Shown: positions 1-41,416 of the stretch, in pieces
Layout of the letters: each line of letters starts with the position of its first letter
Position numbering within the stretch: position 1 is the stretch's first letter
NCBI RefSeq assembly: GCF_000255455.1
Contig: NZ_JH621258.1
Coordinates: 1-64,000 of the forward strand
Reading direction: 5' to 3'
Source: Aquimarina agarilytica ZC1
Lineage (GTDB): Bacteria; Bacteroidota; Bacteroidia; Flavobacteriales; Flavobacteriaceae
Length of the DNA: 64,000 nt
Made by a program: the position numbers and the translations under genes
Notes under the pieces: model-generated
Told to the model about the DNA's origin: nothing
Database searches by the model: none
The model's input: the letters and a program-made list of their open reading frames with translations, nothing else

Positions 1-3000
1 CTTCTGTGACATCTGGTAATCCATCATTATCACTATCTAAATCTAAGTGGTTAGGAACTCCATCGCCATCGGTATCGAAGCTATCTACTACTCCGTCTCC
101 ATTTGCGTCTGGTCCGATATCCGTATCTAAATAATCTGGTATCCCATCGCCATCGGTATCTGCATTTGGATCTACATTGCCTGGTGTTTCCTCTGTATCT
201 GGAATACCATCATTGTCATCATCTAAATCAACAGTATCAGGAATGCCATCCATGTCATTATCTGGAAACTCTCTCCAATTTGGCTCATTTCCTACAATAA
301 ATGTATCAGGGAAACTTGTAGCAGTCTGACTATTATTTGTTGGATTGGTTATAGAGTTAACCGCTAAATCAACTGTATCATAAGGATCTAATAATCCATC
401 TCCATCAGCGTCAGTAGCACCTATAGGAGTATCAATAACCCCATCATCATTCGTATCATATGCTTCTAAATTATCCGATTCACCATCACCATCACTATCT
501 GTATCCAAATAATCAGGAATAGTATCCGAGTTTGCAAGTGTAGCATCCGTATTTGTTGGAACTATAGCTGTCCCTGTTCCTGCCACTGGAGTAGAAATAT
601 CAGTATCATCAACTGGATCATAGCGATCATCAATACCATCACCATCCGTATCTACACCTAAAGGTGCTTGATATCCTGTGGTAGTCTGTGCTTCTATATT
701 ATCAACTATACCATCATCATCCGCATCAATATCTACATAATCTGCCCCATCGGTACCAAAACTATTTACTGGTGTTGTTGCCGTTGCTGTTAACGAATCA
801 TCATCACTATCAACCTCATCGGGTATCCCATTTAAACCTACTGAAACTGTCCCGCCTGTGTCAATTCTACCATCACTGTCGCTGTCTGTTGCTGCTGGGT
901 TTCCACTTTCGACAACATCATAAATACCATCATTATCACTATCTAAATCTAAATGATTTGGGATACCATCTCCATCCGTATCAACTACAGTACAGCTAAA
1001 ATTAATAGCAATTCTAGAAATTGGATTCCCGCCTGCAGTCTGTTCTATTGTTAAACTATCTGTTAAGGTTGTTATTGACCATGTAGCCGTTGCTTGATTT
1101 CCTGCATCTATAGTCAAACCTTGAATTCTAATAGAGAATGGTGATACTGTTGTTACATTTAATTGACCGTCAGGATCATTCACTATAAATGTCCCATTAG
1201 TAGTTAAAACTAAGGTTTCCAAATCAAAGAAACCAAGTCCTCCTACCGTTCCATTCAGTGTATTTAATGTAAACAGAGTAGGTTCAGTTGTTGTAATTCG
1301 AAAGCTATCTCCATCATTTAAACTTCCAACAATAGGGCCAACTGGATCTCCTACTAAACTTCCTGTCAATACTTCGACTGAAGCGGAAGCTATATTATTT
1401 GTAAGCTCATTAAAGAAATCTATTGGACCATATGATCCCCCAGAAATAGTTGAAAAATCAAAATTATTACATACCAAACCTTCAACGCTGTCTAAAATAC
1501 CATCATTATCATCATCCAGATCTACCGTATCTGGTATTCCATCGCCATCTGTATCTAATGGCTCTTTTGGATCTCGATAATCAACATCTGTATCTGTTTG
1601 TGTTACATCTGTAGTATCTGTATTTGGCGTATCTACTGATCCATTATCTAAATTGTTATTTACATCACTAACAGTATTATCTGCATCAAACGCATCTAAC
1701 AATCCGTCCATATCGGTATCATTAAAATTATTCGGTATATCTAAACCTGCTTCAGCTGTATCCAATAATCCATCATTGTCACTATCTGTATCTTTATAAT
1801 CTGGTATACCATCAGGTATAGTCTCACTATCTTCTGGAATAGCTATTCCTTCGTCACCTACACCTTCGTAAGCTTCATTTAATCCATCTCCATCTGTATC
1901 AGATTCATTTATTAACGGAGTTAATGGATCATCTTCTATTGGTGCAATGTAACCAACAGTAGGTTGTGCCTCCACATTATCGGGAATACCATCGTTATCT
2001 GAATCTATATCTAAATGACTTGGAATACCATCGCCATCTGGATCAATATCAGCTGGGTCACCTGTATTTGGATCATTATCACCATCAATATTTGGATCCT
2101 CTACTGTATCTAAAATACCATCATTATCATCATCTAAATCTGCACTATCTGGAATACCATCGCCATCAGTATCATTCCCTTCTCTCCAATCAGGTTCTGC
2201 TCCTGGCATATCTACGTCTGGGAATGGATTTGTTGCTGTTTGCCCTCCATTAGTAGGGTTTGTACTCGTTGTTCCTGTTCCTAAAGTAACTTCATCAAAA
2301 TTATCATCCAATCCATCACCATCTGCATCAGCATTTGCTGGTACTGTATCTGCTACTCCATCTTGATTGGTATCATAGGCTTCGATAGTATCACTCTCTG
2401 CATCACCATCACTATCTAAATCTAAATAATCTGGAATGGTATCACTATTGGTAAAAGTAGCATCAGTATTTGTTGGAACTATAGCTGTTCCTACCCCTGC
2501 CACTGGAGTTGAAATATCAGTATCATCAACTGGATCATACACATCATCGATCCCATCTCCGTCACTATCCGTTCCGCTAGGTGCTACATAAGCTGCAGTA
2601 GTCTGTGCTTCTATATTATCTACTATTCCATCATCATCCGCATCAATATCTACATAATCTGCCCCATCGGTACCAAAACTATTCATTGGTGTTGTTCCAG
2701 TTGCCGAAAAAGCATCATCATCACTATCTACTTCATTTGGTATACCATTTGCGCCCACTGCAACAGTACCTCCTGTATCTATACGTCCATCATTATCTGT
2801 ATCTGTTGCCAACGGATTACCACTTTCAACTACATCATAAATACCATCATTATCACTATCTAAATCAACACTATTTGGAATACCATCCCCATCAAAATCT
2901 GATTCTGTACATAATAAACTTCTGAAAGCAATATTATCTATAGTTATCGAACCTGCATTTGGTGCTGGATTATTATATAGATAAAGTCTAATCTTATAAA

Positions 3001-10732: not shown

Positions 10733-11110
10733 AATCCTAAGATTTTTATTCAAACTGCTGATTAAGCTATGTTTCCTATCAAAAGTTAAATGTTTAAAAA
10801 CAAACACTTTATAAATTTAACGTTTCTTTTCTTATTGAAAATCAGTTATTTATATTTTTTTATTATTTTTCGATAACCCGTTATTTAATACCGCTATAAT
10901 ACCTAAAAAATCGTTTAAGCGCACTTATTAATAAGCAACAAATAACTGAATATCAAACACTTAATTCTAATCAAACTACTGTTTTTTCAATTTTATATAT
11001 AGCCTGTTAGTTGTCACTCTGTAACTAGGTTAAATTTTCTATAAAAGACAAAATATTATGGTTTCTTATTCATTCATTACAAATAAGATGATATCCTATT
11101 TAGCTTACTT
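10733..11110. other. AT-rich intergenic region upstream of the leftmost giant gene
   Basis: The gap between the 3847-residue gene (stop at 11362) and the start at 10732 is 629 bp. I see no credible coding frame here and no clear TAnnTTTG promoter. The stretch should hold the promoter of the gene that starts at 10732. The right part of the gap (11111-11296) is a repeated element listed separately. Confidence 0.5.
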
Positions 11111-11296: not shown

Positions 11297-11361
11297 TTAT
11301 CAGTAAATCGTATGAGACTTTAAATTGATTTAAGAACAACTCATTTTAGAGCATACTCAAA

Positions 11362-14300
11362 TTAATTTGGAGCAATTGTAGGTGGTATAATATCACAACA
11401 ACCACTATCTGTATTTACATCTTGACTATCCCCTATGCTCTGCGTATTTGGAGTATTTGCCAGCGTTGACAAGGGTACTCCGTAAGTTGGAGATGTAGGA
11501 TCTGTATCTACGGTAGTTCCTAAATTAAATAACACACTTTCGGTAGTGCTTCCTAGATAACCTGTTGAAATGCTACCATCATTATTATTGTTATTGGGTT
11601 GATTTAATAAAGTCGCTGAAGCATCACTTAAATCGGTTTGCGCAAAACTTAAATCCCCTTCTACGGCATCGGGACATCCATCTCCGTCGCTGTCTAGGTC
11701 TAGACTGTTTATGATTCCATCATTGTCAGTATCTGATAAACATTCAAAATCTAGAATGAGTGCATCTAAATCTCCACTTCCTCCTCCAACTCCGTAAGGG
11801 TAAAACCTCATAACGTAGTTTTGATTCGGTTGTAACACGAAATCAGGAATAATATCATAATCCACTACTACTCCCAATCCTGAAGTAATACCTTCAATAT
11901 TACTTAAAATAGTAAAAGTTGTAAAAGCAGCATCTGTATCAATCAGTAATGCTCCATTTTCAATAATATCTGTTCCGTTAATTTGAGAAAATGTTCCCCA
12001 ACTAATAATTTTTTGCAACACTGTCGAGGTAAACGTGAATTCTACATACTCATTATTAGTAATCGCTTCTGCAAGTGTAATGGCAGAAAGTCCTGAAAAA
12101 TTCCATTGATTATCATTTGATGGACCACTAATTGATAGTGTTAAACCACTTCCCGCACTAAAAGCAGAAAGAGCACTAAGATCTCCATTTGAATTATCAG
12201 ACCTAACCGTCCCTGGAAAAGTAGCACCTCCATCTACATCATAGAATTGCTCGTATGCCGTTCCACATATATCTTCACTTATATCCAAAATCCCATCATT
12301 ATCATCATCCACATCAAAAACATCGGCAATTAAATCACCATCAGAATCTAAACAAGCATTAACAGTACTATCTGATGCAAAAGTGGTATATGTTGATGTA
12401 TATTCGGGTGTTCCATCTAGAGTTCCTGTACCCCCGTTATCGTCTATACTATCTAATAATCCGTCACCATTACTATCATTCGTCGCATTAGATGTAAATC
12501 CAAACTGTGCATCAGCCGTGCTAGTCGTAGTATTTGTCACTCCATCTCCATTGATCACATCCCCATTTCCAATACCTGTAGTTGGAGCGACTCCTGCTTC
12601 TACCGCATCTGGGCATCCATCTCCATCACTATCTAAATCCAAATGATCCAAAATTCCGTCTCCATCTAAATCTTCAGTACACGTAGTTCGTGGGTACAAT
12701 GAAGCTTGGTAATTATTCAAGGTAAAAGTTACTTCGTTGATAAACCCATTACTCCAAGTACTTCCTGCATCTCCTTGTAATCTATAAAAACGATACGATC
12801 CTGAATTTTGAGTAATCGCAACATTTACTTCCAAATCTGCTTCTGCTTGACCATAGGCCGTACTTAAGGATAGATCTGTCCAATTATTACCGTCATTCGA
12901 ACCTTGTACTGTAGCACTCACTCCATTTAACAAGAAACTATTTGAATTCAGCAATTGGAAAATAATTTCACTAATATCTAAACCATTAGTAAACTCAAAT
13001 TGCATAATTGTATTTCCCGTAACCGGTAATACATTAGTAAAACGTGCTTGATTCACCGCTACATTGGCTGTCTCTCCGTCTACAGTATTATCTAATGCAT
13101 AAGAAGCATTAATCATAGTTAAATCAGAGGTCACTGTAATATCAGCTGTACGATCTCCTGTAGTCCAAACGGTCTCAGGAATAAAACATGTCGGAGACTC
13201 ATCACTATTGATAATCCCATCATTGTCCGCATCTACATCGAATAAATCAGGTATATCATCATTATCTGTATCAGAACATGCATTTAACACCTCTGACAAT
13301 GCAAAATTGTTATATGTAGAAGTATATTCAGGAACACCATCTAAACTTCCACTTCCTCCATTATTATCAACAGTATCAATCAATCCATCATTATTGGTAT
13401 CAGGATCACTGTTTCCGGCATCTTGTGTAAAGCTAAAGAAAGCATCCGCGATACTAGTTGTAGAAGTTACTGCTCCTCCTGTCCCATTTTCAACATCTCC
13501 ATTTCCAATACCCGTCGTAGGTGCTACTCCAGCTTCTACAGCATCTGGACAGCCATCTCCATCACTATCCAAATCTAGACTATTGATAATTCCATCATCA
13601 TCACTATCCTGTGAACAAGGTATTTCTAAAGTAAACTGGAATCTTAACGAAGGAAAAGAACTCCATGTCAAGGGGTTAATGCGTAACCCTATCCAATCTT
13701 CATCTGAATTACTTACGGTATTAAATACTTGAGTAGTATTATTTGTATTGGCAGTAAAAGTACCTATAGAAACCCAACTAGTTCCATCTTTAGTTCCTTC
13801 TAATTGATAACTCGTCACCCATTGTCCTGCATTACCTCGCCCTGCTGTAGTCACTCCTATAATTCGTCGTGCTCCACCAAATAACATTCCAACAAATTGA
13901 TTCGTATCCGTATTATTTACTCCTGACCAACTTGTTCCAGAAGTTAGCTGGGGTGCATTCAAGCCACCGAAATTCCCACTGTTCACATAATCTCCACTAG
14001 CAGGATCTGGATCTAACAATTCTTCTGCACAAAGAACGCGTTCATCTACGTCCAAAATCCCATCATTATCATCATCAATATCTACTAAATCTCCGATGCC
14101 ATCATTATCTGTATCAATACATCCGTTTCTAGTTGCATCTAAAGCATTTTCATTATAAGTAGAACTATATTCTGTTGTCCCGTTTAAAGGTAACGTAGCT
14201 CCCGAATTACTATCTAAACTATCCCGTAACCCATCATCATTCGTATCATCATTTCCTCCATTTGTAGTTTGATCAAAACTAAATTGAGCATCATCTATAT

Positions 14301-23418: not shown

Positions 23419-23592
23419 GGGTTTCGTATAAATAGGTTGATTTATTTTTCATTAGGTTAAGGCAGGTTAACACGACAGTGATAAACCTGTTGATACTTGG
23501 AAGAAAAAGTATAACCTCAGCTACTTATTTAACACAAGAATAATAGAAAAAGAAACGATATATATGCTAATTTTTTATTAATAAATCGTATT
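23419..23592 (-). repeat. Unidentified ~175-bp element, copy 2 (inverted relative to copy 1)
   Basis: Homologous to the minus strand of 11111-11296. It abuts, and overlaps by two bases, the stop codon of the upstream giant gene. A local hairpin with arms CAGGTT and AACCTG is seen in this copy (about 23463-23489) but is not kept in copy 1. No conserved frame is visible. Confidence 0.6.
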
Positions 23593-29500: not shown

Positions 29501-30490
29501 TCTAGTGATAGACATTGCCGTACCTGCTTGGCTATTTAAATCTGGTGTTAACTCTATCGTATCTGAATTCAAAGGATCGTAAGAGGCACTACCACTAATA
29601 ATCGCTACTCTAGAAATATCTAGAGGTAAGTTTCCGAGACTAGGATCACCACATTCTATATGATCTAAAATTCCGTCATTATCATCATCTAAATCTACAC
29701 TATCAGGAATATTATCTCCATCAGTATCTGTACAATTTTCTAAATATACATTTTGACCACTTCCTAAGCTTTGAGTTACTGTAGCATCGGTTCCTGGAGC
29801 GGTATTTGTTGCTGTAGTAATGGTTACTCGACCTTGTGTATCTACATAATTAGCAGCTACTGGATCTAATGCTCCTCCATAGTTTCCCGTTAGGTTTGTT
29901 GTAACACCAGAGCTAGCTGTTCCATTAAAACCTCCTCCTGTATTCCCTCCATCTATAGCTCCTATACCATTAGCATCTGTTAAATTTCCTATGATAAAAC
30001 TACCGCCTCCTTCTACGGCATCAGGACACCCATCGCCATCACTATCTAAATCTAGATTATTATCTACCCCATCATTGTCGCTATCACAAGGAGATAAGGC
30101 AAACCATGAATAAGCAATAAAATCTCCACTAAACCCAGTAGAATTAATTTCAACACTAGAAATTAGTATATTACTATGTCCCTTAAAAACCAAATTTTGA
30201 TTATCTACCGTACCATTAAGTGTGATTGCTCCATTAGCAGTATTGTAGTTAAGTACACCTAGCGCTTTTTGAAATGCACCGTTTGGTGTATTTCCCCCAT
30301 TAATTGTCACTGTATAAGCTGCCGTTGGTGGCAGACCTATGGTAGTTGGATCTACATCTAATATCCAAAATGCTATTTCATTTGCAGGTACAGCTGGCGA
30401 AAATGCAATGGAGAAATTTACATCACCTGATCTTGCTACCCGAGGTTCTCCTCCATTAGTTTCTATATTGTAGTTTACTTGCCCATCATT
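23591..30490 (-). CDS. Giant TSP3-repeat protein, main (3') part of a frameshifted gene
   Basis: This frame encodes 2299 residues and continues the signal-peptide-bearing frame at 30475-31242; joined by a -1 shift the product would be about 2550 residues. Its own first ATG (30601) lies inside the upstream frame and begins with junk-like sequence, so an independent start is unlikely. Domains: a choice-of-anchor-like region first; an L-type (legume-like) lectin domain at about 29640-28915, with a GADGITVIFHNDP stretch, an EFDTF stretch and VSWDVSTTTLTWSFNG; F5/8-like modules at about 26340-25820 and 25420-25010; and TSP3 blocks throughout. The tail ends CCDIVPPMIAPN-stop, as in its paralogues. 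Probably a secreted glycan-binding adhesin, by inference from the lectin and discoidin-like modules. Confidence 0.85.
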   Translation of the reverse strand, partial: NDGQVNYNIETNGGEPRVARSGDVNFSIAFSPAVPANEIAFWILDVDPTTIGLPPTAAYTVTINGGNTPNGAFQKALGVLNYNTANGAITLNGTVDNQNLVFKGHSNILISSVEINSTGFSGDFIAYSWFALSPCDSDNDGVDNNLDLDSDGDGCPDAVEGGGSFIIGNLTDANGIGAIDGGNTGGGFNGTASSGVTTNLTGNYGGALDPVAANYVDTQGRVTITTATNTAPGTDATVTQSLGSGQNVYLENCTDTDGDNIPDSVDLDDDNDGILDHIECGDPSLGNLPLDISRVAIISGSASYDPLNSDTIELTPDLNSQAGTAMSITRIDFTQDFTIEYELNFGTNNDTNDADGNATGIGAGGADGITVIFHNDPNGSETVGVAGAGIGAAGIINGIAIEFDTFDNTLFGGNENAIAGPVNLRFDHTSIWDTDDGGPFVQLPGTGVTDLGEIEDGTFYPVSVSWDVSTTTLTWSFNGIVVGTLVEDVPTLRFGGATAAYFGLSSSTGGLRNRHQVSLESFAGNLIYCDTDQDGLPDYLDLDADGDGCPDANEGDGNFLDDDVVTAGGSIQAGNTGGSFNGTASGVLINLGNTVDANGQVTEVDGNTVPPVDQAVSFAQALSVNTCTDTDGDGIADIDDLDDDNDGILDVDEKSSGPVDFTGITQVVAPSGNPSTDVLSQNNISILVTTTSVDLTANLSPSGNGAIILDSQNLGGIDVLRTTINSGDGVPHEFSFNAPISNLEFVVYDLDNDEIVAFEASYGGVEVPITLASNITLGANVTEFNGAGSGIYIGTALTNNFDSGANQRVTLNLDGPIDTLIMTIAEGAGSERNFGITIETLTACDDLDGDGIDNTLDLDSDGDGCPDAVEGGGSFTQTQLADATGVGEISANNNSAGAGTFSGTAASVTNNLTGNYGGSTDPLTDGFVDNEGRVLEFQDGTAILSAPVSQSNGFSQDNNQESCTDTDLDGVPDVVDIDDDNDGILDTDEANFCEDEGFLEFPLSYANLAANSNEGVALQNAAWQADIMDGADQIGRLFFTALQNGTPGSYGALCSTCGNFPVSLLNSSDAETIADDFGGGINNVVVGAIFVPGTLMFVEYKATVENTSTSEQTFTLSYVSNASEIPNQNLGINHNKAPSTIDITFDDTIVSTTVTDYNNPTLFDPVTSLHTSGFTGGAETVSLTSGGSFTVTNGISGIIGQSGNTAQSIGYSVNYTITLQPGQSTDIIARDRGATNADNYGFLLSKFVPCGSDIDTDNDGIPNRLDLDSDGDGCPDSVEAGLPLTNGDLGNADVENGSGGVVTSTINAANAQLDTSGVDTTPQDGLNDSVDTNGDGIPDYNSTYALIALSDTLDGCADFDNDGVGDLVDIDDDNDGIVDAEESPSCFFLETEWTEGDRTTLITVTSDINSFNTTYTYENMVDGETANAQANQARYQNGQAVTGNTIIQFEFERAVNINEIIFQLQSTSSFMNTTVFATLQGSNDGTNWTDLTTSFDYQVTESDNEVNVVVTQNADLYRFYRLQGDAGTTTQNGIVNEVTFNFNNYLASKYFKATCTEDSDDDGLLNHLDLDSDGDGCPDSVEANVSPTTGRGQGTLDNGSGGSVTTTTPNVDDAQFTFVSDMTNDSNSDGLLDSIDGVTVNGSTEYTSTFNTFALDSNIDACLDTDLDGIPNVFDIDDDNDGILDVDEAVVCPQELLDPDPTSGNYVLSSTGFGLNAPQLTSTTSWAPTSANANEFVGMLFGGTRRIIGVTTSGRGNANQYVTSYELEGTKDGTNWISIGTFTGNTNNSGQVFNMVTNTDEDWTGLRINPETWVGFPSMRFQFTLENSCSQDSDNDGIINSLDLDSDGDGCPDSVEANVSPTTGRGQGTIENGSGGSVTTTTPNVDDAVFTFVSNATTDSNGDGLLDSVDDNGGSGTLDGTPEYTSAYNTFALDDTIDACLDSDLDGIPDVFDVDDDNDGILDVDECRIVSTQVVAGTGTRAADIQWVVWDDPSITSDDIQNGDTHSETLADGTIINFTFNNIVKSIASRVIEANDFSDIFVGPLGQLYDPSTDRDRIFFNGTGTYMLDLNISATRNGSTVPVPPMIVGDGESTNGSGEFVRVTTNGSVYTSFESYGNGGAQTGLGTDTVNYTNTTAGGETFITENATLLNISINSGGFQGVALGFDLSSITDCITDTDMDGIINSLDLDSDGDGCPDAVEGDLSFEQSDLSDASTTLLNQPNNNNNDGSISTGYLGSTTESVLFNLGTTVDTDPTSPTYGVPLSTLANTPNTQGIGGSQDVNDDTACCDIVPPMIAPN

Positions 30491-31242
30491 AAAAAAACTG
30501 CAGCTGACTGTGTACCTGAACCCTGAAAATCTACCGTTACAGTTGAAGAAGTTCTCCCTTTCCATGTACCATTTGTATTTTGTGACAAAAAACCTATACA
30601 TTCGTTTCGATCTAATACTCCATCATTATCATCATCAAAATCATCTATATCTGCTACTGAATCGCCATCAGTGTCTAAACAACTTACGGAGCTTCCCACA
30701 CATACATCTGCATTGCCTGGACCATTACCTACATAACTTTGAAATAAACCTACGGTAAAAGTGCCTCCCATATCATCTTGTAATGTTAAAGGCGTTTCGG
30801 GTAGAATACTTACTATACCTGACGAACAGGTATTTGTTAATTCAAAAGAAAATAACGGATTTGGTACACCAGCGGTCATTGGAAAAGCTACATTGGCTGA
30901 AGTATATCCCCAAGTTGTCACTTCATTAATGGTTTGCCCATTGGGTATAAAGGTATTTCCTTGCGTATAAGAAACTGCTGAAGCGAGATTTGTAAAATTG
31001 GTAACGGTACCTGCTGTTACTGGATAGCTTACACTTATTTGGCTAGATACCAAATTTTCGAGAAATGCGCTTCCTCTGTCTGCATCCGATGTTACTGTCA
31101 CCGTATATACGCCTGCGCCGTCTCTAGTTACTGAAAACTCGAACTCGCATTGTGCAAAAGCACCTGTTGACAGCAAACACCAAAAAATAAAAACTTTTAA
31201 AAGAATACTGTTAATTTTTTTACAATGTAATTTTAGCCCCAT
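30475..31242 (-). CDS. 5' part of frameshifted giant TSP3 gene, with signal peptide
   Basis: ATG at 31242 was chosen over an in-frame TTG at 31320 because it places a normal signal peptide (MGLKLHCKKINSILLKVF... ending GAFAQ) at the N-terminus. The mature part begins CEFEFSVTRDG. A TSP3 block (DTDGDSVADIDDFDDDNDG) follows at about residues 188-210. The frame stops at 30475, about 16 nt beyond a run of seven T (minus strand). The sequence homologous to the rest of the family continues in the -1 frame. Either a disrupted gene, a base-call or assembly error in a homopolymer, or a real recoding site. Confidence 0.8.
   Translation of the reverse strand: MGLKLHCKKINSILLKVFIFWCLLSTGAFAQCEFEFSVTRDGAGVYTVTVTSDADRGSAFLENLVSSQISVSYPVTAGTVTNFTNLASAVSYTQGNTFIPNGQTINEVTTWGYTSANVAFPMTAGVPNPLFSFELTNTCSSGIVSILPETPLTLQDDMGGTFTVGLFQSYVGNGPGNADVCVGSSVSCLDTDGDSVADIDDFDDDNDGVLDRNECIGFLSQNTNGTWKGRTSSTVTVDFQGSGTQSAAVFLMMGK
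30490..30498 (-). other. Frame-change site: T_TTT_TTA slippery heptamer in a T7 run
   Basis: In the upstream frame the codons are GCA GTT TTT TTA ATG. The heptamer T_TTT_TTA is in the canonical X_XXY_YYZ phase. A -1 slip gives ...F-F/L-N-D-G-Q-V-N-Y, which joins exactly into the long downstream frame. One extra T in the run would do the same. A genuine recoding site would usually have a downstream stem or pseudoknot, which I did not identify. Confidence 0.7.
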
Positions 31243-31256
31243 AACGATTATATTAA

Positions 31257-31365
31257 CAAAAATACAATTCACTGATTTACTGTGTTTTATATATAAAGTT
31301 AATTTTTTAATACAATACAACAGCTTGAATTACAGTAAATTAGATAAAATACATACTTTTAAGAT
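31257..31365 (-). promoter_or_regulatory. Upstream region of the split giant gene, with boxes shared with a paralogue
   Basis: Box 1 (31258-31293, plus-strand core AAAAATACAATTCACTGATT) and box 2 (from 31341, TAGATAAAATAC) recur upstream of the 1447-residue gene at 36025-36060 and from 36076, in the same order and orientation. Within box 1 the minus strand reads TATTTTTG (31264-31257), which fits the Bacteroidota -7 consensus TAnnTTTG, about 15 nt before the ATG. No good -33 TTG is seen. Confidence 0.45.
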
Positions 31366-31555
31366 GAAAGTTAATTTTTTATAGACCAAATACACAAGTT
31401 TATGATTTTACATATAATTAAACTTAGCTGTCTTTATAAAATTTTAACTATGAAATTATGGGTTAGTTAATTTTCAATAAAATTTACAACGTATTTCAAT
31501 TTTTTAGTTGTCAAAAAAATCAACATTGAGCTATAAAATTATTTGATAAAATAGC

Positions 31556-31580
31556 CCCTCTCTAACATCTTTAGAGAGGG
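31556..31580 (-). terminator. Hairpin terminator after the 1447-aa gene
   Basis: Perfect 10-bp stem CCCTCTCTAA / TTAGAGAGGG with a 5-nt loop. It is followed on the minus strand by a T-rich stretch (GCTATTTTAT). It lies 30 bp past the stop at 31610, as expected for the terminator of that gene. Confidence 0.65.
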
Positions 31581-31609
31581 ATCTATATTTACGTAATCAC
31601 CTAAAAATA

Positions 31610-34600
31610 TTAGTTTGGAGCAATCATTGGTGGTACAATATCACAACAAGCGGTATCATCATTGACATCTTGGCTACCCCCTATACCTTGAGTGTTGGGT
31701 GTATTTGCTAAAGTAGATAATGGTACTCCATACGTTGGTGACATTGGATCGGTATCTACAGTTGTTCCTAAATTAAATAACACACTTTCGGTAGTGCTTC
31801 CTAAATAACCTGTTGAAATGCTACCATCATTATTATTGTTATTAGGCTGATTTAATAATGTTGTCGAAGCATCGCTTAAATCTGACTGTTCAAAACTTAA
31901 ATCACCTTCTACCGCATCTGGACAACCGTCACCGTCACTGTCTAAGTCTAAGTTATTTGGAATTCCGTCGTTATCCGTATCTGTAATACATAGATTAGAG
32001 GTATCAATCAAACTTATATCATCAATAGCAAAATCATTACCATTTATACCAGTTGAAATATTAAAAACCTCTATCGTATAATCTGTTTGAGAACCTGTAT
32101 TGAAAGTAGCACTTGCTTCTACCCAAATATGTTGAATGGTTAATTGACCTGTACTTGCTGATGCAACAACGTTATTACCACTATTCAGAACTCTTATACC
32201 TACTTCAGCAGGAAAAGAAGCCGTATCAGGGGCTAAAACAGCATTTGCACCCCATAAAGACAATGTAAAATCCGAATTGACAGGAAGTGTAACTGATTGA
32301 CTGTAAAATATCCCAACATTATTAGATCCATTTACTGCTAGATAAGCATCATCATCTAAACCAGTGGTATGACCTGCTAAATCTTCCCAAAATGGAGCTG
32401 TGCTCCATCCTGTTGTTGCTTTACTTATTATCGCATATTGACCAGCAGCATTATTCAAAGATGCAAACGAATAACCATTAGATGTTATTGGTGTTTCTAA
32501 ATTTCTAGATCCACTTGAAAGCAGACCAAATGAACCATCGTTCTCCGTTGGAACAAATTGAGAAGAACATTCATCTACATCCAAAATTCCATCATTATCA
32601 TCATCTAAATCAAATACATCGGCAATAGAATCCCCATCTGAATCTAAGCAAGCATTTACAGTCGAATCAGATGCAAAAGTACTGTAGCTTGATGTATATT
32701 CTGGTGTACCATCTAGCATTCCTGTACCTCCATTATCATCAATGCTATCTAACAATCCATCACCATTGTTATCTGTAGTAGCATCTGAAATAAAAGTAAA
32801 CTGGGCATTATCTACATTGGGTGTGGTTGTAATCACAACTCCACCTGTTCCGTTTTCAATTGTTCCTTGACCAATTCCTGTAGTTGGTGCTACCCCTGCT
32901 TCTACTAAATCTGGACAACCATCACCGTCTGAGTCGAGGTCAAGGTGATTCAGAACACCATCGTTGTCGTTATCGCTTCCTAAACAATAATCAAAGAATA
33001 AACCTGGATCGTCTAAAATAACATTTCCTGCGGCAGCTTCTACATCATAGAAATAAAGCCTAACCGTATATGTTGTACTAGCTTGAAGGGGATAATTTGC
33101 TATTTCAGTAGGTTGCGAACCATTAGGAAAACCTGCTGAACCCCCACTAGCTGTGAAAATAGTACCTAAATCGGTAAAATTTGTACCATCATTTGATATG
33201 GAATAGGTAGTTGTGAAACTTAAAGTAGGGTCAACTTGTCTGAATTTATAAATATAATCTATACTCCCATTGATAATATTATCTACTGTGGTAAAAGTAT
33301 AGGTTAAATATTCATCTTTGCTCTTTGCATCAGCCAAATCAGTTGCTGTAATATTTTCAATAAAAGCATACTGTGGTTGATTATTTATCGTAATGTTATT
33401 AGCACTAATAATTATCGAACCTGGATTCAAAAAAGGAGCGTTCGTAGTTGTAGAGAAAACATCATTAAATGTAGTCGTAGTAGTAAAACCATGCATTAAT
33501 CTATAGGAATCGACGGGTATAGCTTCTCCTGAATTAAAAATAGGTGAATCAAAACACCTCAAACCCTCACCTGTATCCAATACCCCATCATTATCGTCAT
33601 CGATATCTGTAACGTCTGGTACGCCATCTAGATCTGAATCGGTACAGTTTTCAACTCCTGCATCCAGATAACCTGCCGTAGCATTCTGCGTTGTTTGACT
33701 TCCGCCAGGACCATCCAAAGGAACTCCAGTACCGTCCACATCTCCTTCATCGGCATCTGCCAAATTATTGCTTGAGGTTAAGTCTGTTGGTCTGAAATCA
33801 CCAGAAGCTTCTACAGCATCAGGACAGCCATCACCATCACTATCTGTGTTTTTTGAGTTGGTACATAAACTATCGGTACTAAAAGAGAATTGATCAAAGC
33901 CGTGAGGATCGCGTACGGCGTTAAAATTAGTTCCTCCACTCATAAAAGGTCCTAAAAAACCCTGAACAATACGGTGGCGTATAGCAACTGTTGAAACAGG
34001 ATTAGGTGTCAAAAATGAAATAGTAGTTTCAATATTTTGTCCCGAACCAATGTTCCCTCTCAAGGTACCTACTGCATCATAAATATCTACAGTCCCCACA
34101 GTATCATCACCTGTAGGTTCATCCCTTAAAAAAGCTATTAATTTCCCTCCTGCAATTATTTCATACTGGAGCATTAGATCAGATGGATTGGGGGGATTTC
34201 CAAACGTATCAAAAATATCTACGATATCTACGCTAAACAAAGTTACCGGAGTGGTGAAATTATAAGATACCGTGTATTCATCATCAACCCCTCCATTAAA
34301 TTCCGATTCCACATACACTCCACTACCAGTATCACCCGATATAAATCCGCCTGCTGTTGTAGTACGTAATTCGGCTTGCGCATCTGCTGCATAAGTATCC
34401 GAATAGGTAATGGTTCCGTTTGAAAATGTAATAACACTAGTATCTGCAGTTCCGCCTCCTACACTTCCTGTAGAGGTATAATCGGATGCACTACTCAACG
34501 TACTAATATTGATACCTTCTCGTATCACTGCTTGCTCAAAACCATTATCCAAAGCTCCGGTAGCGTCTGTATTTCCTCCTACGGTAAAAATTCGAAAGCC

Positions 34601-35953
34601 TCCTGCTTCCCAATTTACTGCTGTTCCAATAGGATCTGTAGTGCTTGTCGAAATATTACACACATCTAACTCATCTAAAATTCCATCATTATCATCATCT
34701 AAATCTACTTCATCGGGTACGCCATCTTCATCAAAATCATCACAGTAATTAATGCCATCTTTTGTATTCCCGAGTACCTGCCCTGCTCCTGCTATATTAG
34801 GAACACCAGCTAGAGTAGCTCCTACTGTATTTCCTAAGTTTTGAGTTACTATGCCTCCATTTCCATCGGAAAGGCTTCCCATAGCAGTTGTTCCATTGTC
34901 AACTACTGTAAAGTTACCTCCTCCCTCTTCCAAGTCAGCACAACCATCATTATCACTATCCAGATCATACATATCGACAATACCATCATTATCTGTATCT
35001 CCCGTTGTACAATCACTCACATTTAGTCTAAAATTATCGAAAGAAACCCTTCCCAATCCTCCTTGATCCTCGGAAGCATAGACATACAAACGCACGGTAT
35101 ACAATTGGCCCGGGTGTAACTGATATTGTGGAAACACCCCAAATTCCTCATAATCAAATGCCGCTGGCACCTCAAATTGCTCATCCAGAGAATTGGTAAA
35201 TGAAAGCCCGTTTTGTCTACGCACTGTTGTGGTGCTAGGAATTAACACTGTAGACGTTGTAAAGCTATCGGTACTAATTTCAATTTGATAGGTAAAATCT
35301 ACATATAACGGAAAGACTGGATCTGTAGGTGCTGTAAAACTTTGACGTAAATCTACTCCTCTTGCAGTTTCGTAAACTCCGGGGATAAATGTGGGTACAT
35401 CCTGAAGGTTAAAAAAACGTAATAAAACCGATTTATCCGTCAATGTTGTAAACGAAAATTCTAAATAATCATTATTTGTTTTTGCTCCTGTAACATCTGT
35501 TTCTGTGGCTCCACTCAAAAAATAATACCCCGAAACCTCCACTTCATTGCTTGGATCTAAGGATTCATCAACCAAGCCCGAACCAAAACTTACATTAGAT
35601 ACTGTTGGTTGCACAAAATCTACAGGAAACCCAAACACAGGATCAAACTGAGAGGGCTCATAACGATCAACTTTAGGATTCCCAGTATTAAAGTTTGTCC
35701 TTGAAAATGCATCTGTACTTGCATCAATATTTGGATCCCATATTAATCCTAATCCTGTAGTTGCTGCTGGATCACACCCACTCTCTACGGCATCTAATAT
35801 TCCATCATTATCATCATCTAAATCCAATTGGTTGGTAACTGTATCTCCATCGATATCTTGGGCGTAAGTTGTTTGAAAAGCACCAATAGTAAAACAGATT
35901 AATATCAATAATAACTTATTGTAAAAAAATGAGGTTTGAGTAATTTTATCCAT
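31610..35953 (-). CDS. TSP3-repeat surface protein, 1447 aa
   Basis: ATG at 35953 (MDKITQTSFF) is preferred to the ATG two codons earlier because it aligns with the MKKITSTSFF start of the leftmost giant gene. The signal peptide ends near TTYAQ. The first TSP3 block is at residues about 33-58, followed by a ~200-residue insert (about residues 65-290) paralogous to the first insert of the leftmost gene; both have a YEPSQFDP stretch and YTVRLYVY-type signature. A second such insert lies near residues 800-990. The tail is almost identical at DNA level to those of two other array members and ends CCDIVPPMIAPN-stop. No membrane anchor or type IX secretion domain is visible. Likely exported, calcium-binding surface or matrix protein by inference. 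Confidence 0.9.
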   Translation of the reverse strand: MDKITQTSFFYNKLLLILICFTIGAFQTTYAQDIDGDTVTNQLDLDDDNDGILDAVESGCDPAATTGLGLIWDPNIDASTDAFSRTNFNTGNPKVDRYEPSQFDPVFGFPVDFVQPTVSNVSFGSGLVDESLDPSNEVEVSGYYFLSGATETDVTGAKTNNDYLEFSFTTLTDKSVLLRFFNLQDVPTFIPGVYETARGVDLRQSFTAPTDPVFPLYVDFTYQIEISTDSFTTSTVLIPSTTTVRRQNGLSFTNSLDEQFEVPAAFDYEEFGVFPQYQLHPGQLYTVRLYVYASEDQGGLGRVSFDNFRLNVSDCTTGDTDNDGIVDMYDLDSDNDGCADLEEGGGNFTVVDNGTTAMGSLSDGNGGIVTQNLGNTVGATLAGVPNIAGAGQVLGNTKDGINYCDDFDEDGVPDEVDLDDDNDGILDELDVCNISTSTTDPIGTAVNWEAGGFRIFTVGGNTDATGALDNGFEQAVIREGINISTLSSASDYTSTGSVGGGTADTSVITFSNGTITYSDTYAADAQAELRTTTAGGFISGDTGSGVYVESEFNGGVDDEYTVSYNFTTPVTLFSVDIVDIFDTFGNPPNPSDLMLQYEIIAGGKLIAFLRDEPTGDDTVGTVDIYDAVGTLRGNIGSGQNIETTISFLTPNPVSTVAIRHRIVQGFLGPFMSGGTNFNAVRDPHGFDQFSFSTDSLCTNSKNTDSDGDGCPDAVEASGDFRPTDLTSSNNLADADEGDVDGTGVPLDGPGGSQTTQNATAGYLDAGVENCTDSDLDGVPDVTDIDDDNDGVLDTGEGLRCFDSPIFNSGEAIPVDSYRLMHGFTTTTTFNDVFSTTTNAPFLNPGSIIISANNITINNQPQYAFIENITATDLADAKSKDEYLTYTFTTVDNIINGSIDYIYKFRQVDPTLSFTTTYSISNDGTNFTDLGTIFTASGGSAGFPNGSQPTEIANYPLQASTTYTVRLYFYDVEAAAGNVILDDPGLFFDYCLGSDNDNDGVLNHLDLDSDGDGCPDLVEAGVAPTTGIGQGTIENGTGGVVITTTPNVDNAQFTFISDATTDNNGDGLLDSIDDNGGTGMLDGTPEYTSSYSTFASDSTVNACLDSDGDSIADVFDLDDDNDGILDVDECSSQFVPTENDGSFGLLSSGSRNLETPITSNGYSFASLNNAAGQYAIISKATTGWSTAPFWEDLAGHTTGLDDDAYLAVNGSNNVGIFYSQSVTLPVNSDFTLSLWGANAVLAPDTASFPAEVGIRVLNSGNNVVASASTGQLTIQHIWVEASATFNTGSQTDYTIEVFNISTGINGNDFAIDDISLIDTSNLCITDTDNDGIPNNLDLDSDGDGCPDAVEGDLSFEQSDLSDASTTLLNQPNNNNNDGSISTGYLGSTTESVLFNLGTTVDTDPMSPTYGVPLSTLANTPNTQGIGGSQDVNDDTACCDIVPPMIAPN

Positions 35954-36024
35954 AATCATCTTATTTTAAAAAAATCGTAATATGCTCTAAAGCAGATTTT
36001 TAGAACATTAAATTACAATTCTTT

Positions 36025-36099
36025 AAAAATACAATTAACTGATTAACAGTATTTTAGATAAAAAGATGATTTTAATAGATAAAATACTCGTTTTAACGA
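36025..36099 (-). promoter_or_regulatory. Upstream region of the 1447-aa gene, with boxes shared with a paralogue
   Basis: The plus strand carries AAAAATACAATTAACTGATT (36025-36044) and TAGATAAAATAC (from 36076), matching the two boxes before the split giant gene in order and approximate spacing. They may be inherited promoter or operator sequence kept after gene duplication, or simply residual homology. Confidence 0.4.
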
Positions 36100-36232
36100 T
36101 AAAAAACATTGACATTTATAGCATATAGTTTTTGAACAGTCTTTTTTTGTATTTTCATAAATAGAGAGACTTACTAATATCAAAAAACACGGTTCTTATA
36201 TAGCTCTAGAGTAAAGATTTTAAGCGTTTAAA

Positions 36233-38749
36233 TTAATTAGGCATAATAATCAAAGGTACAATTTGACAACAATCTGCATCGGTTGTAGCGTTTTGACTTT
36301 CCCCTAAACTTTGTTGTACTGCAGCAACTGTATTTCCATCAACTAGGGTTACGCTACCTGTGCTATCTATAATACCATCAGCAACAGGGTCTGCACTAGT
36401 AATTACTCCTGTTAAATTTTCTTGAATGGATTGCCCTGAAGGGGTTCCAACATTCCCACCATCCATATTAGATGTTAACAATACAGGCTGAATAATTGCA
36501 TCCCCTCCTTCAACAGCATCAGGACAACCATCACCATCACTATCTAAATCGAGATAATTAGGAATCGTATCTAAATCTGTATCTGTAGTCCCTTCAATTA
36601 TATCTAAAATTCCGTCATTATCATCATCTACATCTACTAAGTCACTAACACCATCTCCATCACTATCAAGTAAAGGAGGACAATTACTTAACACATAACT
36701 CCCTGTTGTTCCGCATATTGCAGAACAATCAGGTGTAGATACTTCATAAAAAATAGTTTGTCCATTAATAGGAAGCACTGGTGGTTCTGGAAGTAAATAA
36801 CTCATTCCTCCATCACCTGAATAACGTACAACTGCATTTCCACAAACTGTGACCAAATTTAATTCACAGTTTGCTACATTAGGTAATGTAAAGTCCACTC
36901 CTTGTACAGGTGCATTACATACACGAAGGCCTGTAACCAAATTTGGTCCATTAGGATTATTCACTGTTGTTACTGGTGTACTGGCTATGGGAGCTGGAGT
37001 AGAAATATTTACGGCATCGACAATGGAATAATCCGTAAAATTAACTCCTGTACCTGGTGGTAAAAAATAATTTACTCTTAATAATGCATAATTTAATACA
37101 CCTTCCGTATTCCCTCCGTTATCTAAAAAAGTATCATAGGTACATATTTGCCATAGTCCCGAAGCTGGTGTTGTTGAATTAATTCCTCCCAAATCATTAG
37201 TTGCTACAGTAGGCGGGATTAATAATGTACCTGCACCATTTCCGGGCCCACCAAAACACGTAGTGTTTCCTATTACAGCTGCTGGTCCTACTGGGCATCC
37301 TCCATTGGTAGCCCAATAAGGGTGGCAGAAAGGTCCTTCGGTTGAAGAGACAGGTTTTTTTACATTAACTACTGCCTCACATATCCAACTATTGCCAAAT
37401 GGTGGTCCCGATGACACCCTAAATTGATAATCAAAACTTTCTGCAATAGCTGCTGCGGGCACACTACTTAAATCTAAATTAATGCAGGTTTCCGCAGCTG
37501 CATTATAAGTAGCTATTAAAGTATTACCCGCTGGTACATTTACTTGCGTTCCCCCAACAGCACTATTCCCTTGGTTTAATTCATCTGATGTTTTACAATA
37601 TAATCTAGCAGTAAATACCTGATCTTCAAAACCACAAGCTGCTATTCCTCCTGCTAAATTTAACGTATGTACGTAGACTAAGGCTGTTGTAGGGTCATCG
37701 GCTGTACCAAAAACACCATCTAGTCCTACGGTTGAAGCTGCATTAGTACTAATTGGTATTCCATTCTGTAACCACTCAATATAATAATCTTGTCCTTCGA
37801 TACCTGTATCTACTTCTGCCCGTAATGTTACCGTATCAGCACCACAGGTATCCTTTTCAACTGTAGCTTTAACTATTTTTGGACAAAAAGCACAAGTATA
37901 TCCTGGACTAGTAACTGAAAATTCACAATCAGAAACAACATTATCTCCTAAAATAAAAACATTATAGGCCGATCCATCGGGTATATTATTAATGAGTATA
38001 GAGCCATTAGCTACTAAATTAGGATCATCACCTGCTAGAACCCCTACATCATTATTGATCGCATATGTCCCAGCTCCTTGCCCACCATTGGTGTAAGCTA
38101 TTTCTAAATTATATGTACCATTCATTGCTGAACAATCTACTGCTGCAGTAGCCAATTGAAGCTCACAAGGTGCAGGTACCCAATGTGGGGCAAAACAAGG
38201 TTCTGAAACTAAAGAACAAGTTCCCGATACCGTGACATCATAACATAATTCATAAGTTGTATTTGGGCTTACTTGCCAAATAGGTCTACCTATATTAGCA
38301 GGCAAATTAGGCTCATTAGTTACTCTTCCCGTAGCTGTGACTGGTGAACACCCATTGAAAAACTGCCAATTATTGATGTTAGACACGGTACAACCAGCAT
38401 TAGTAGTTGGTGTTGCCCCTAAAAAACTAATAAAATTCTCTTCCAACACTGCTGGAGTAGTAAATGTCGCACAAAAGGTCACCGTATCCCCTGAAGTTAC
38501 TATTTCAAAAACATCTGGGTGACACAATTGATCTGTACCTACTCCATCAACATTATTAAAAACACTAATTTGATCTGTTATTGGTGCCGTACCACAAGTT
38601 GCTGTTGCACAAGATCTGCATGGATCTATTGGTGGCATTATAACTGCATCTAAAAAAAACATTCCAGTTGTTGCCTGCGTATAATGTACCATTAACAATA
38701 TACAAAATAGAACTACTATTTTATAACTCGAATCGTAGTATTGCCTCAT
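36233..38749 (-). CDS. Cys-rich secreted protein with TSP3 tail, 838 aa
   Basis: ATG at 38749 (MRQYYDSSYK) is used rather than a TTG two codons upstream; a signal peptide follows, ending near HYTQA. Unlike its neighbours, most of the protein (about residues 30-720) is not TSP3 but a Cys-rich, beta-type region with many Asn/Thr/Gly and unrecognised domains. A segment near residues 530-575 (SGLWQICTYDTF...GVLNYALLRVNY) loosely recalls a proprotein-convertase P-domain strand pattern, which is only a guess. TSP3 repeats occupy about residues 685-750. The tail ends CCQIVPLIIMPN-stop, a divergent version of the shared ending. Only about 90 bp separate it from the preceding 858-residue gene, so the two may be co-transcribed. 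Confidence 0.88.
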   Translation of the reverse strand: MRQYYDSSYKIVVLFCILLMVHYTQATTGMFFLDAVIMPPIDPCRSCATATCGTAPITDQISVFNNVDGVGTDQLCHPDVFEIVTSGDTVTFCATFTTPAVLEENFISFLGATPTTNAGCTVSNINNWQFFNGCSPVTATGRVTNEPNLPANIGRPIWQVSPNTTYELCYDVTVSGTCSLVSEPCFAPHWVPAPCELQLATAAVDCSAMNGTYNLEIAYTNGGQGAGTYAINNDVGVLAGDDPNLVANGSILINNIPDGSAYNVFILGDNVVSDCEFSVTSPGYTCAFCPKIVKATVEKDTCGADTVTLRAEVDTGIEGQDYYIEWLQNGIPISTNAASTVGLDGVFGTADDPTTALVYVHTLNLAGGIAACGFEDQVFTARLYCKTSDELNQGNSAVGGTQVNVPAGNTLIATYNAAAETCINLDLSSVPAAAIAESFDYQFRVSSGPPFGNSWICEAVVNVKKPVSSTEGPFCHPYWATNGGCPVGPAAVIGNTTCFGGPGNGAGTLLIPPTVATNDLGGINSTTPASGLWQICTYDTFLDNGGNTEGVLNYALLRVNYFLPPGTGVNFTDYSIVDAVNISTPAPIASTPVTTVNNPNGPNLVTGLRVCNAPVQGVDFTLPNVANCELNLVTVCGNAVVRYSGDGGMSYLLPEPPVLPINGQTIFYEVSTPDCSAICGTTGSYVLSNCPPLLDSDGDGVSDLVDVDDDNDGILDIIEGTTDTDLDTIPNYLDLDSDGDGCPDAVEGGDAIIQPVLLTSNMDGGNVGTPSGQSIQENLTGVITSADPVADGIIDSTGSVTLVDGNTVAAVQQSLGESQNATTDADCCQIVPLIIMPN

Positions 38750-38839
38750 ATCCAATAATTATTACTATATATATAAAAGTTAAGTTACCAAAAAAAAACA
38801 TAAAAATTTGAAAATCAATATTTTAATGTAAAATTAAAT

Positions 38840-41416
38840 CTAATTTGGAGAAAGTGTTGGTGGAATAATTTCGCAACATTGACTATTTTTTGTACCATCT
38901 TGACTCTCATCAATACCTTGTGTAACTGCTGTAGTGGCAGGACCTATTATAGGTACTCCAAAAGTTATACTACCAGGTGTGCTATCAACTGTACTTGGCA
39001 AATTCGATAAATTTTGATTTACTGTTGAGCCTACTCCACTCGATACTGTACCTGCGGCTGTTACCAGATCTACTTGCGCAAAGCCTCCTGCACCCTCAAC
39101 AGCATCGGCACAATTATCATTATCACTATCTAAATCCAAACAATTAGGAATACCATCACCATCAAAATCCTCGGCAATACTAATACGGATTTCATAAATG
39201 GCATTAGGCTGTGTTGGATTAGCAGTATCTTCGTCAGTCGTAATAACTTCAAAGCTTTGTACATTGGATATTTCCGATTCCCATATAAATGATGTTGACG
39301 TACTACTTGTTGAAGTATTCCGCTGTACTAAATATTTATTTCCATCTTGAATGTTTGAAAAACCGGTCGTTAAGCTACCCGAAAAGAAATAGGTAGTTCC
39401 ATCTACACTACGAATACCATCAAATGAAGTGTCTTGAGACAATACTGGATCGTGTATTAATTGTAAAAAAACCTGAGAGGTACCTGTAAAATCAAACCGA
39501 GAATATGCTGTAATAATTGCGGGGTTACCCGCCACAAATTCGCCACTGTTATTTGTGTAAATATTTTCTGCACTTATAACCACATTTCCATTTCCTAATC
39601 CAAATTTTGAGCTTACATCAACATTCACTACACTCACATTACTCTCATTACTACCCAAACCTAAATCAACTGCAGAAATTGTTAAAAAATTTCGAGGACA
39701 CTCCACCTCATCTAAAATAGCATCATTATCATCATCTAAGTCTAAATTATCGGTAATCCCATCACCATCGGCATCTCTAACTATATTTATTACCGTTGGA
39801 TCTGGGTTTGAAGCAGGTAGCGTCCTTGGGTCATCACTACTTATGGTTTGCGGACCAAAACTAACAAAACCAGTATTACTAAAACTGCCTACTTCTGCCG
39901 ATGAGCTTACGGCTATTTGCACATCAAAAGTGGTACTCCCAGCGGCAGGTACAATTATGTTTTCTATTTCTATACTATTAATAGTAAAATTAGTAATAGT
40001 ACCTCCTCCTGGATTTGCTGGCACTATAGAACCGGGTACAAAACTAAACTCTGAAGAAGTTAGTACATCAGAAAAACCTACGTTTGAAACTGTAGTTAAT
40101 GTATTTGAAATTTCAAAAGTATAAGTAAATGTTGATCCTGGAGCAAACGTAAAACCATTTGCCGATTTGGTAATTACAGGCGGGGTACATGCCGCTGCAT
40201 CAAAGTCCGAAAAAGGGGTTACTTCCCCTATTCTTTTGGCCACATTTGTGGTCACATTATAAAACAATATAACGTTTCCTGTAGTACCTCCATTTTTATA
40301 AAAATATACATTTCCATTAGCATCAGACCATGCACCTCCTGCACTACTTATAAGTGTATCCGAACTTGGATCAACAGTAATATCCAAAACTTCACCTGTA
40401 TTTGGATTATAGGATCGTATTGTTGTTCCATTAACACCGTAAAGTAAGCCTGTCTGATTTGAAAAGGCTACATCGGCGGGATTAATATTCCGATCTAATT
40501 GAACAAAAGAATATTCAAAGGCATTTAAATCTACTTTGGCAATATATCTGGTACCATCCACATTATCTTGTGCAAATGTCAAAAAGGTTTCGGTTTGTGA
40601 ATCAATTGTTCCTATAAAATTCCTGAGATTTAATTGCGAATTAGCCACATTACCGCTACCTGGCCAAGTAGGCATTAAAGCTGCTGTAGCAGCTGAATCG
40701 GCTACTGGTTTACCTAAACTTACCACCACTCCCGATGGAGATATGGTTACTAAATCACCTCGTCTGACTGTATCGGTAGTATCAAAATCTCGAGTTTGAA
40801 GCGCATATAATAAATTATTATTGGTATTAAAAGCTAAGGCATTATATGTCCCCGCTGCCGAAAGTGTAATTACTCCCGAGGGCGTTTCTGGTGCTTGTAA
40901 ATCTAATGCTCCTAAAGTAGATGACGTGGTATTATTAGGTGCGCTAATTACATAAGCTGTATTGGTACACACAAAATTTGTGTTAGTCATTATTGTTAAA
41001 TTCAATGTAGCACTGGCACATACATTTGGATTAGCAAGCGTATTGCATACTCGGTAATTAATAGAAACATTTGTTCCTGCTTCGCTAGTTAATGGAGTAT
41101 ACCTTAGTGTTCCTCTGTCTACATTAAATTTAACCGTTCCGCCTGCGGAACCAGTTCCTAAATCTGTTAATTCAATGAAACCTACAGATCGCACATCCGA
41201 ATTTCCAATAAAATCATCATTATCCAATATATACACTTCTGATACTGTTGCCAAAGGGATAGTCTGCATATCATTTACTGCAACAGCACTATTTACATTA
41301 GGGTCTACCGTATCTGGTGTACCATCATTATCAATATCTTGCGCACAAATAGCTGTTGATATTAAAAAAAAATTAATAGAAAAATATTTGCTAAATATTA
41401 CTTTTATATTCTCCAC
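38840..41416 (-). CDS. Secreted TSP3 protein with DUF6923-like and DUF11-like regions, 858 aa
   Basis: The start is GTG at 41416; there is no upstream in-frame ATG before a stop, and this start gives a signal peptide ending STAICAQ. The order of parts is: a short TSP3-like DxDxDGTPD segment; an Ig-like region (about residues 40-145); a propeller-like region resembling DUF6923 (about 150-410, with YNALAFNTNNNLLYAL and a VAFSNQTGLLYGV repeat); a DUF11/SdrD-like beta-sandwich (about 420-530); a TSP3 block; another insert; and a final TSP3 block with the family tail ending CCEIIPPTLSPN-stop. First gene of the array in the direction of transcription and the most distant from the near-identical members. 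Surface or matrix role inferred. Confidence 0.88.
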   Translation of the reverse strand: MENIKVIFSKYFSINFFLISTAICAQDIDNDGTPDTVDPNVNSAVAVNDMQTIPLATVSEVYILDNDDFIGNSDVRSVGFIELTDLGTGSAGGTVKFNVDRGTLRYTPLTSEAGTNVSINYRVCNTLANPNVCASATLNLTIMTNTNFVCTNTAYVISAPNNTTSSTLGALDLQAPETPSGVITLSAAGTYNALAFNTNNNLLYALQTRDFDTTDTVRRGDLVTISPSGVVVSLGKPVADSAATAALMPTWPGSGNVANSQLNLRNFIGTIDSQTETFLTFAQDNVDGTRYIAKVDLNAFEYSFVQLDRNINPADVAFSNQTGLLYGVNGTTIRSYNPNTGEVLDITVDPSSDTLISSAGGAWSDANGNVYFYKNGGTTGNVILFYNVTTNVAKRIGEVTPFSDFDAAACTPPVITKSANGFTFAPGSTFTYTFEISNTLTTVSNVGFSDVLTSSEFSFVPGSIVPANPGGGTITNFTINSIEIENIIVPAAGSTTFDVQIAVSSSAEVGSFSNTGFVSFGPQTISSDDPRTLPASNPDPTVINIVRDADGDGITDNLDLDDDNDAILDEVECPRNFLTISAVDLGLGSNESNVSVVNVDVSSKFGLGNGNVVISAENIYTNNSGEFVAGNPAIITAYSRFDFTGTSQVFLQLIHDPVLSQDTSFDGIRSVDGTTYFFSGSLTTGFSNIQDGNKYLVQRNTSTSSTSTSFIWESEISNVQSFEVITTDEDTANPTQPNAIYEIRISIAEDFDGDGIPNCLDLDSDNDNCADAVEGAGGFAQVDLVTAAGTVSSGVGSTVNQNLSNLPSTVDSTPGSITFGVPIIGPATTAVTQGIDESQDGTKNSQCCEIIPPTLSPN

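Follow-up and report, generated by a model that had tools for sequence, protein, structure and literature searches.

The DNA analysed here (hereafter the window, 64 kb in full) comprises bases 1-64000 of contig C13; the contig belongs to a draft Aquimarina assembly of 89 contigs and 4.25 Mb. The window raises the question whether a row of giant repeat genes is a family of interchangeable paralogues or a set of unlike parts that act together. The row consists of six consecutive head-to-tail genes on the minus strand, which occupy 41.4 of the 64 kb and which we name A to F in the order of transcription. An earlier note on this DNA had described six consecutive same-strand genes, and in this it was correct: the array of about 41 kb recurs with the same genes, order and flanks in the assemblies of other isolates. 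The note had also treated the six as equivalent paralogues, and here our analysis leads to a different picture in which F would probably be a type-B substrate of type IX secretion (T9SS), whereas A to E carry no recognised T9SS domain and end in a twin-cysteine tail.

Each of the six genes has a signal-like hydrophobic N-terminus as judged by eye. Gene A (38840-41416, 858 residues) continues with a unique head containing DUF6923, a DUF11-like stretch, two TSP3-like cores and the twin-cysteine tail, and gene B (36233-38755, 838-840 residues) with a unique cysteine-rich head, two TSP3-like cores and the tail. Gene C (31610-35959, 1447-1449 residues) is built from modules common to D, E and F and closes with the tail; in gene E (11362-22905, 3847 residues) TSP3-like cores alternate with insert domains and spacers, among them a 628-residue internal repeat and an F5/8 type C domain, before the tail is reached. 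Gene F (1-10732) contributes at least 3577 N-terminal residues, namely a head with one lone cysteine and a TSP3-rich stalk, and leaves the window at base 1, which is also base 1 of contig C13, so that it is cut by the contig end. The sizes previously given for these five genes agree with ours, but gene D (23591-31320), put at about 2550 residues, consists of two overlapping frames, 30475-31320 (281 residues) and 23591-30601 (2336 residues), the latter ending in the tail. The frame changes where seven T follow one another (about 30491-30497), owing either to a sequencing error or to a real break in the gene. In isolate 640, gene B likewise changes frame at a T-rich run near its start (L174 near 10300), and changes of this kind in two array genes of two isolates may reflect either draft sequencing error or slippage-type variation. 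Counted from the outermost start codons the intergenic gaps measure 84, 273, 289, 685 and 554 bp; with later ATG starts the previously reported 90, 279, 367, 685 and 629 bp are reproduced.

Upstream of the array lie a response-regulator-like gene (42151-42573, minus strand, by resemblance), a histidine kinase with a PAS domain (42592-44892, minus strand, Pfam) and, divergent from gene A, a BLUF blue-light sensor protein (41590-42066, plus strand, Pfam); look-alikes of the three, again by resemblance, adjoin the array in 640, 3-767-J and A. agarivorans HQM9. Farther along the window, about 84 perfect copies of the 7-bp unit TTGGTAG (60179-60768) read as a repetitive frame of 201 residues, and eight copies of a second 7-bp unit, GGCTTTT, stand at 61832-61887; both repeats are possibly slippage-prone or assembly-sensitive.

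The family label TSP3 is a motif call on D-x-D-x-D-G. The motif is abundant in C to F, but A and B have only two cores each (C has 5, D 12, E 23 and the window part of F 27), a search of contig C13 with Pfam TSP_3 (PF02412) at E <= 1e-3 gave nothing, and a Pfam scan covering A, B, C, E and the window part of F returned no TSP3-type family. Calcium binding is a property of the TSP_3 family that the array proteins may share. Membership in the BamM (NF053691) and MtsC (NF047638) families was rejected: both match partially over TSP3-like stretches, and the scores are far below the family cut-offs (for BamM 17-110 bits over partial stretches against a cut-off of 315 bits across the protein). One of the insert types in E matches the F5/8 type C family (PF00754, E 2.8e-19), whose fold is often ligand-binding. 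The E-type insert is predicted to form a beta-sandwich whose strands span residues 38-227, in a model with an overall mean pLDDT of 60.7; compared with the PDB, the model reached TM-scores of at most 0.43 among the 50 matches listed, from which no family could be named, and sequence searches of the PDB gave nothing for the insert alignment or for gene A.

How the genes differ from each other became clear when the proteins of six assemblies were cut at their TSP3-like cores into 366 pieces and clustered (few-motif proteins without the tail were omitted, and two overlapping loci of 528 contribute one stretch twice). The heads of A, B, D and E do not cluster together, and C opens almost directly with a core. 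After the heads follow inserts, in clusters of about 160-640 residues, and spacers of 67-114 residues, and the same kind of last module closes A to E. The sharing of modules that had been proposed for the array extends to inserts, spacers and the last module; it does not extend to the heads. F is a gene of another kind, made up for the most part of short pieces rich in TSP3 motifs.

These modules come and go between close isolates. The window array and that of 640 are 86-92% identical over long DNA matches, and E and its 640 counterpart share 91% protein identity over 3824 residues; yet 640 E carries a 313-residue insertion, absent here, that corresponds to one whole core-insert-core-spacer unit, and the two proteins carry different last inserts, the 640 version being common to 528. 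Within E, the 628-residue unit is repeated at 85-86% DNA identity. In place of C and D, 640 has a single gene of 3225 residues with parts common to both. HQM9 has one tail gene and F, and the tail genes of 745 and 528 adjoin a MazG-like gene, not the kinase, regulator and BLUF genes. From these comparisons we conclude with high confidence that modules have been gained and lost and genes turned over in the array, and the expansion proposed earlier, through growth of internal repeats, is supported along with gene turnover: the 628-residue repeat, the 313-residue module and the 3225-residue gene of 640 all attest to these processes. At the DNA level, 90% identity between the C and D tails (C/E 82%, D/E 84%) fits recent copying between genes. 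A homogenisation of the tails is only suggested by the sequences, because a tree of tails leaves the C/D/E group without clear inner order. In this tree of 18 tails, from which two short contig-cut tails of 745 were omitted, A and B form separate branches, each found in three assemblies, and the rest form one branch whose inner order is mostly unclear, the three tails of 528 grouping weakly (22/63).

The tail itself is the feature that unites A to E. Tails had been thought common to all six genes; this is true of A (38840-39169), B (36233-36583), C (31610-31978), D (23591-23959) and E (11362-11730), all on the minus strand, and the end of F is outside the window. In 5/5 genes the proteins end ...SQ[DN]...CC[DEQ]I[IV]P...PN-stop, with the layout and the exact end alike, even though, in the pairs compared, the tails of A and B show only 38-56% identity with each other and with those of C, D and E. 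Neither TIGR04131 (type-B) nor TIGR04183 (type-A, for which 150 of 174 candidates were scored) matches A to E, and a Pfam/NCBIfam scan of A, B, C and E, as well as an NCBIfam scan of the larger D frame, found no T9SS sorting domain. In the genome at large there are 143 type-A matches among the candidates scored and 17 type-B matches, 14 of them over the cut-off. Two further giant frames elsewhere in the genome, L076:1158-17993 (5611 residues) and L075:589-8019 (2476 residues), end in type-B domains, and each is followed by a very similar gene of 314 residues, a likely duplication. A sorting domain hidden by read-through beyond the tails was considered and rejected: stops soon follow in three frames after the complete genes, and the gap between A and B measures 84 bp. 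An AlphaFold model of the tail was uninformative (mean pLDDT 46).

The tail was found only in Aquimarina, in six assemblies and as one relic. Among 52 genomes of the genus the tail model has matches in five, namely the genome of the window, 3-767-J, 745, HQM9 and G062, the last with a relic only; 13 of the 14 matches, in four genomes including our own, reach the last position of the model, and the fourteenth is the relic. This headless relic (L206:400-600, minus strand) adjoins a MazG-like gene, the kind of neighbour that the tail genes have in 745 and 528. A scan of one genome per species (84,980 species, among which the window's own genome may be omitted) gave 12 tail loci, all in Aquimarina, from five assemblies and matched to the last residue, and among 397 genomes of the family the tail forms a protein end only in that of the window. 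The 25 matches outside the genus are internal or unlike the tail, and 0/25 have the Aquimarina-type end. Fourteen of them (13 in G124 and one in G462, genomes of two other genera) do have twin cysteines, six as CC and eight as CxxC, and in all 14 a third cysteine follows in the next core, some 20 residues farther along the chain. One match, in a glycosyltransferase-like protein of G429, was set aside as a chance hit. The G124 copies include those of an open frame of 11,610 codons (G124:C31) in this other genus of the family. By sequence, the Aquimarina tail looks like a module of other genera cut off after the twin cysteines. The chain stops there, and therefore one of its cysteines should lack a partner within the module, if pairing follows the internal copies. 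In the open-licence literature, covered through titles and the openings of abstracts, we found no report on the array locus or on twin-cysteine tails of adhesins.

Gene F differs from the other five in its probable end. Contig C8 starts inside a TSP3-rich, F-like frame of 1409 residues (best blastp E 2e-46; at most 56% identity over 168 columns) that ends in a T9SS type-B/CHU_C domain (PF13585, E 5.8e-24; TIGR04131, 37.9 bits in the genome search and 34.2 against a cut-off of 35 in a separate scan) and is followed directly by a PorP/SprF-family gene (TIGR03519, 274 bits) and then by an OmpA-family gene. The order TSP3-rich frame, PorP, OmpA-like gene is found in 6/6 assemblies (own C8, 640 C61, 3-767-J C94, HQM9 C155, 745 C27 and 528 C15), in the other five by homology or resemblance. 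In 6/6 assemblies the F-like C-terminal half runs off its contig, the N-terminal half of F is cut in 5/5 readable assemblies, and the ends of C13 and C8 share no overlap of 8 to 150 bases. Because contigs break within F in each assembly and no overlap exists, F and C8 are joined by elimination and resemblance. On this footing F very likely continues on C8 and ends in the type-B domain, and it is probably a stalk anchored by the T9SS. Farther downstream on C8, behind the PorP-OmpA pair, three genes at L074:7521-11830 read as photolyase/cryptochrome-like; light-related genes stand on both sides of the supposed locus.

The distribution of F follows that of the tail. Counting matches from query residue 1-2, the full F head is present in 3/52 genomes of the genus (our own, 745 and HQM9, all tail carriers) and also in 640 and 528, that is in 5/5 tail carriers where this part is readable, and in 0/48 genus genomes without an intact tail, with only part of the candidates scored in several genomes (42/135 in G010 being the extreme). 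In 528, the N-terminal half of F follows genes that read as nusB-like and DUF1573-like, and no tail gene is found within the 20 kb read; therefore the co-occurrence of F and tail does not come from linkage alone.

Cysteine counts point in the same direction. In A to E the cysteines of the module parts stand at module starts and ends, mostly as an opener and a closer (a pattern that is not assignable in the B head), the last module has DGDGC and CC, and CC is found nowhere else in the array proteins examined. After removal of the signal-like N-termini, with cleavage sites set by eye, the mature cysteine count is odd in 14/15 tail proteins, or in 14/16 when D is added, the even ones being 640 E and D here (34, that is 5 + 29 over two frames); for 640 B, whose signal-like region is in a different frame, the count began at the frame start. 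Orthologues are not independent, and parity was therefore recounted per orthologous set, with E of the two isolates kept apart: 10/12 are odd (about 0.02, one-sided). For comparison, odd counts were obtained in 3/7 other large secreted-looking proteins, which mostly have T9SS-type ends; an eighth, with an unclear start, was omitted. The readable N-terminal part of F also has an odd count in 5/5 strains (17, 15, 17, 13 and 19 cysteines). Its first cysteine is the sole head cysteine and is aligned in 5/5 strains, the remaining ones look regularly paired in four strains and irregularly in 528, and the ends of F have no cysteine in 6/6 assemblies. With an unpartnered cysteine in the tail and a lone cysteine in the F head, the simplest use of the two would be a bond between them.

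Combining the module comparisons with the distribution and cysteine data, we suggest that the array is a fast-evolving modular surface-adhesin locus with one anchored stalk, F, and exchangeable arms, A to E, perhaps disulphide-linked from tail to head, a reading to which we give, as a whole, slightly less than an even chance. In this proposal, (i) the C-terminus of F, through the type-B domain and its own PorP/SprF-family shuttle, would anchor the protein at the outer membrane, with the head presumably pointing outward, (ii) an A-E arm would be joined to F by a disulphide bond from tail to head, so that different arms could be shown on one stalk, the CC pair perhaps acting as the donor disulphide in the manner reported for the SprF-GldK pair, and (iii) the gain, loss and exchange of whole modules would keep altering the arms. 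The partnership of A to E with F is supported by the data and we consider it somewhat probable that they act together; the disulphide bond from the tail to the F head is put forward more tentatively than the proposal in its entirety. A surface role had been suggested for the array before, and it fits both the F5/8 type C domain of E and the probably anchored partner F. Nothing in the data accounts for a passage of A to E across the outer membrane, which weighs against the proposal. They could hitch-hike, being bonded to the F head in the periplasm and carried with F through the T9SS translocon, an idea that we regard as quite unlikely.

Alternatively, the CC...PN tail could itself be an unrecognised third type of T9SS sorting signal, with which A to E would be exported and anchored on their own. 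The tail is C-terminal, kept to the last residue and common to otherwise different proteins in which neither a type-A nor a type-B domain was detected, as this explanation would have it. However, the models of the known domains, with 72 and 85 positions, describe larger units, only about ten residues are specific to the tail beyond the module that is internal in other genera, and the co-occurrence of F and tail would be left without an explanation; we therefore hold a sorting signal to be unlikely.

The tails might also pair with one another, giving disulphide homodimers or chains of A to E that are independent of F. Mostly odd cysteine counts and a C-terminal cysteine without its usual partner agree with such pairing as well as with a bond to F, but it would account neither for the lone cysteine of the F head nor for the co-occurrence, and it appears distinctly unlikely to us.

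In a third scenario, A to E are truncated type-B adhesins that have lost their sorting domain, and the tail has no role. Two module-sharing giants of G124 end, by eye, in a type-B-like domain, and the tail resembles an internal module cut short; indeed, the internal CC copies of G124 with their third cysteine support this scenario and the unpaired cysteine alike. The ...PN end recalls ...SPNGDG over a few residues, which would allow the idea that the tail is the start of a truncated type-B domain. Decay could be read from the frameshift in D here, from the frame change near the start of 640 B, where the signal-like start lies in another frame, and from the relic in G062. Against this, 14/20 tail-bearing frames in six assemblies are complete with a signal-like start (the other six being 640 B with its start out of frame, D with its frame change and four that are cut by contig or region ends), and the end of the tail has been kept although the rest of it has diverged widely between A, B and the C/D/E group. 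Loss of function of this kind is very unlikely.

The earlier note had seen genes growing in size along the row, sharing upstream boxes in part and perhaps being used one by one at different times. Sizes do rise overall, with A and B, nearly equal, out of order; for an order with at most one neighbour out of place the chance is 6/720, for a pattern chosen after it had been seen. The trend returns in 640 (858, 833 in frame, 3225 and 4163 residues, then F) and in 3-767-J (862, 850, 2004 and 3136), which share ancestry with the window's array (orthologues of A and B are present in both, that of A in 3-767-J at 91% identity), so that it may only reflect the repeat content of shared ancestors. The kinase, the response-regulator-like gene and the light sensor upstream would suit timed use, but the gaps contain no tandem repeat and the boxes barely match, the longest notable similarities, in AT-rich DNA, linking gaps B-C and C-D over 30-35 bp with 80-83% identity. 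We consider it highly improbable that a size-graded series is used member by member at different times. Finally, an assembly artefact with collapsed or mis-joined repeats is hardly conceivable, for although these are draft genomes with contigs that break inside F in each assembly and with T runs at which the frame shifts, the genes recur in the same order and between the same flanks in assemblies of other isolates.

Under our preferred reading of one stalk with exchangeable arms, a tail that fastens A to E to F would allow display on a T9SS-anchored stalk of proteins without a sorting domain of their own, and it would extend the use of intermolecular disulphides in the Bacteroidota envelope, reported recently for motors, to surface adhesins. 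If the hitch-hiking idea were true, these would be covalently mounted, exchangeable tip adhesins on one stalk. Irrespective of the bond, the locus lends itself to comparisons between close isolates in which the gain, loss and swapping of whole modules by giant repeat proteins can be followed.

Two known systems invite comparison. Type-B T9SS substrates depend on cognate PorP/SprF shuttles (PMC12618676), and the probable end of F, a type-B/CHU_C domain with a PorP/SprF-family gene directly behind it, is alike in this respect; what differs from the substrates described there is the presence of five upstream partner genes that have no such domain and end in a twin-cysteine tail. In gliding motility, the twin-cysteine C-tail of SprF is reported to bond to one cysteine of GldK (PMC12635249), which provides a precedent within this phylum. 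The array resembles this arrangement in having a twin-cysteine C-tail for which a bond to one partner cysteine is proposed. In SprF, however, a C-x-C pair is carried by the shuttle and lies in the periplasm (PMC12635249), whereas in the array an adjacent CC is carried by giant proteins that read as secreted. The PorP protein behind the F-like frame has no cysteine beyond residue 26 in 6/6 assemblies, and thus lacks the cysteines of the SprF C-tail; compared with the SprB/SprF system, the twin cysteines of this locus stand on the putative arms and not on the shuttle.
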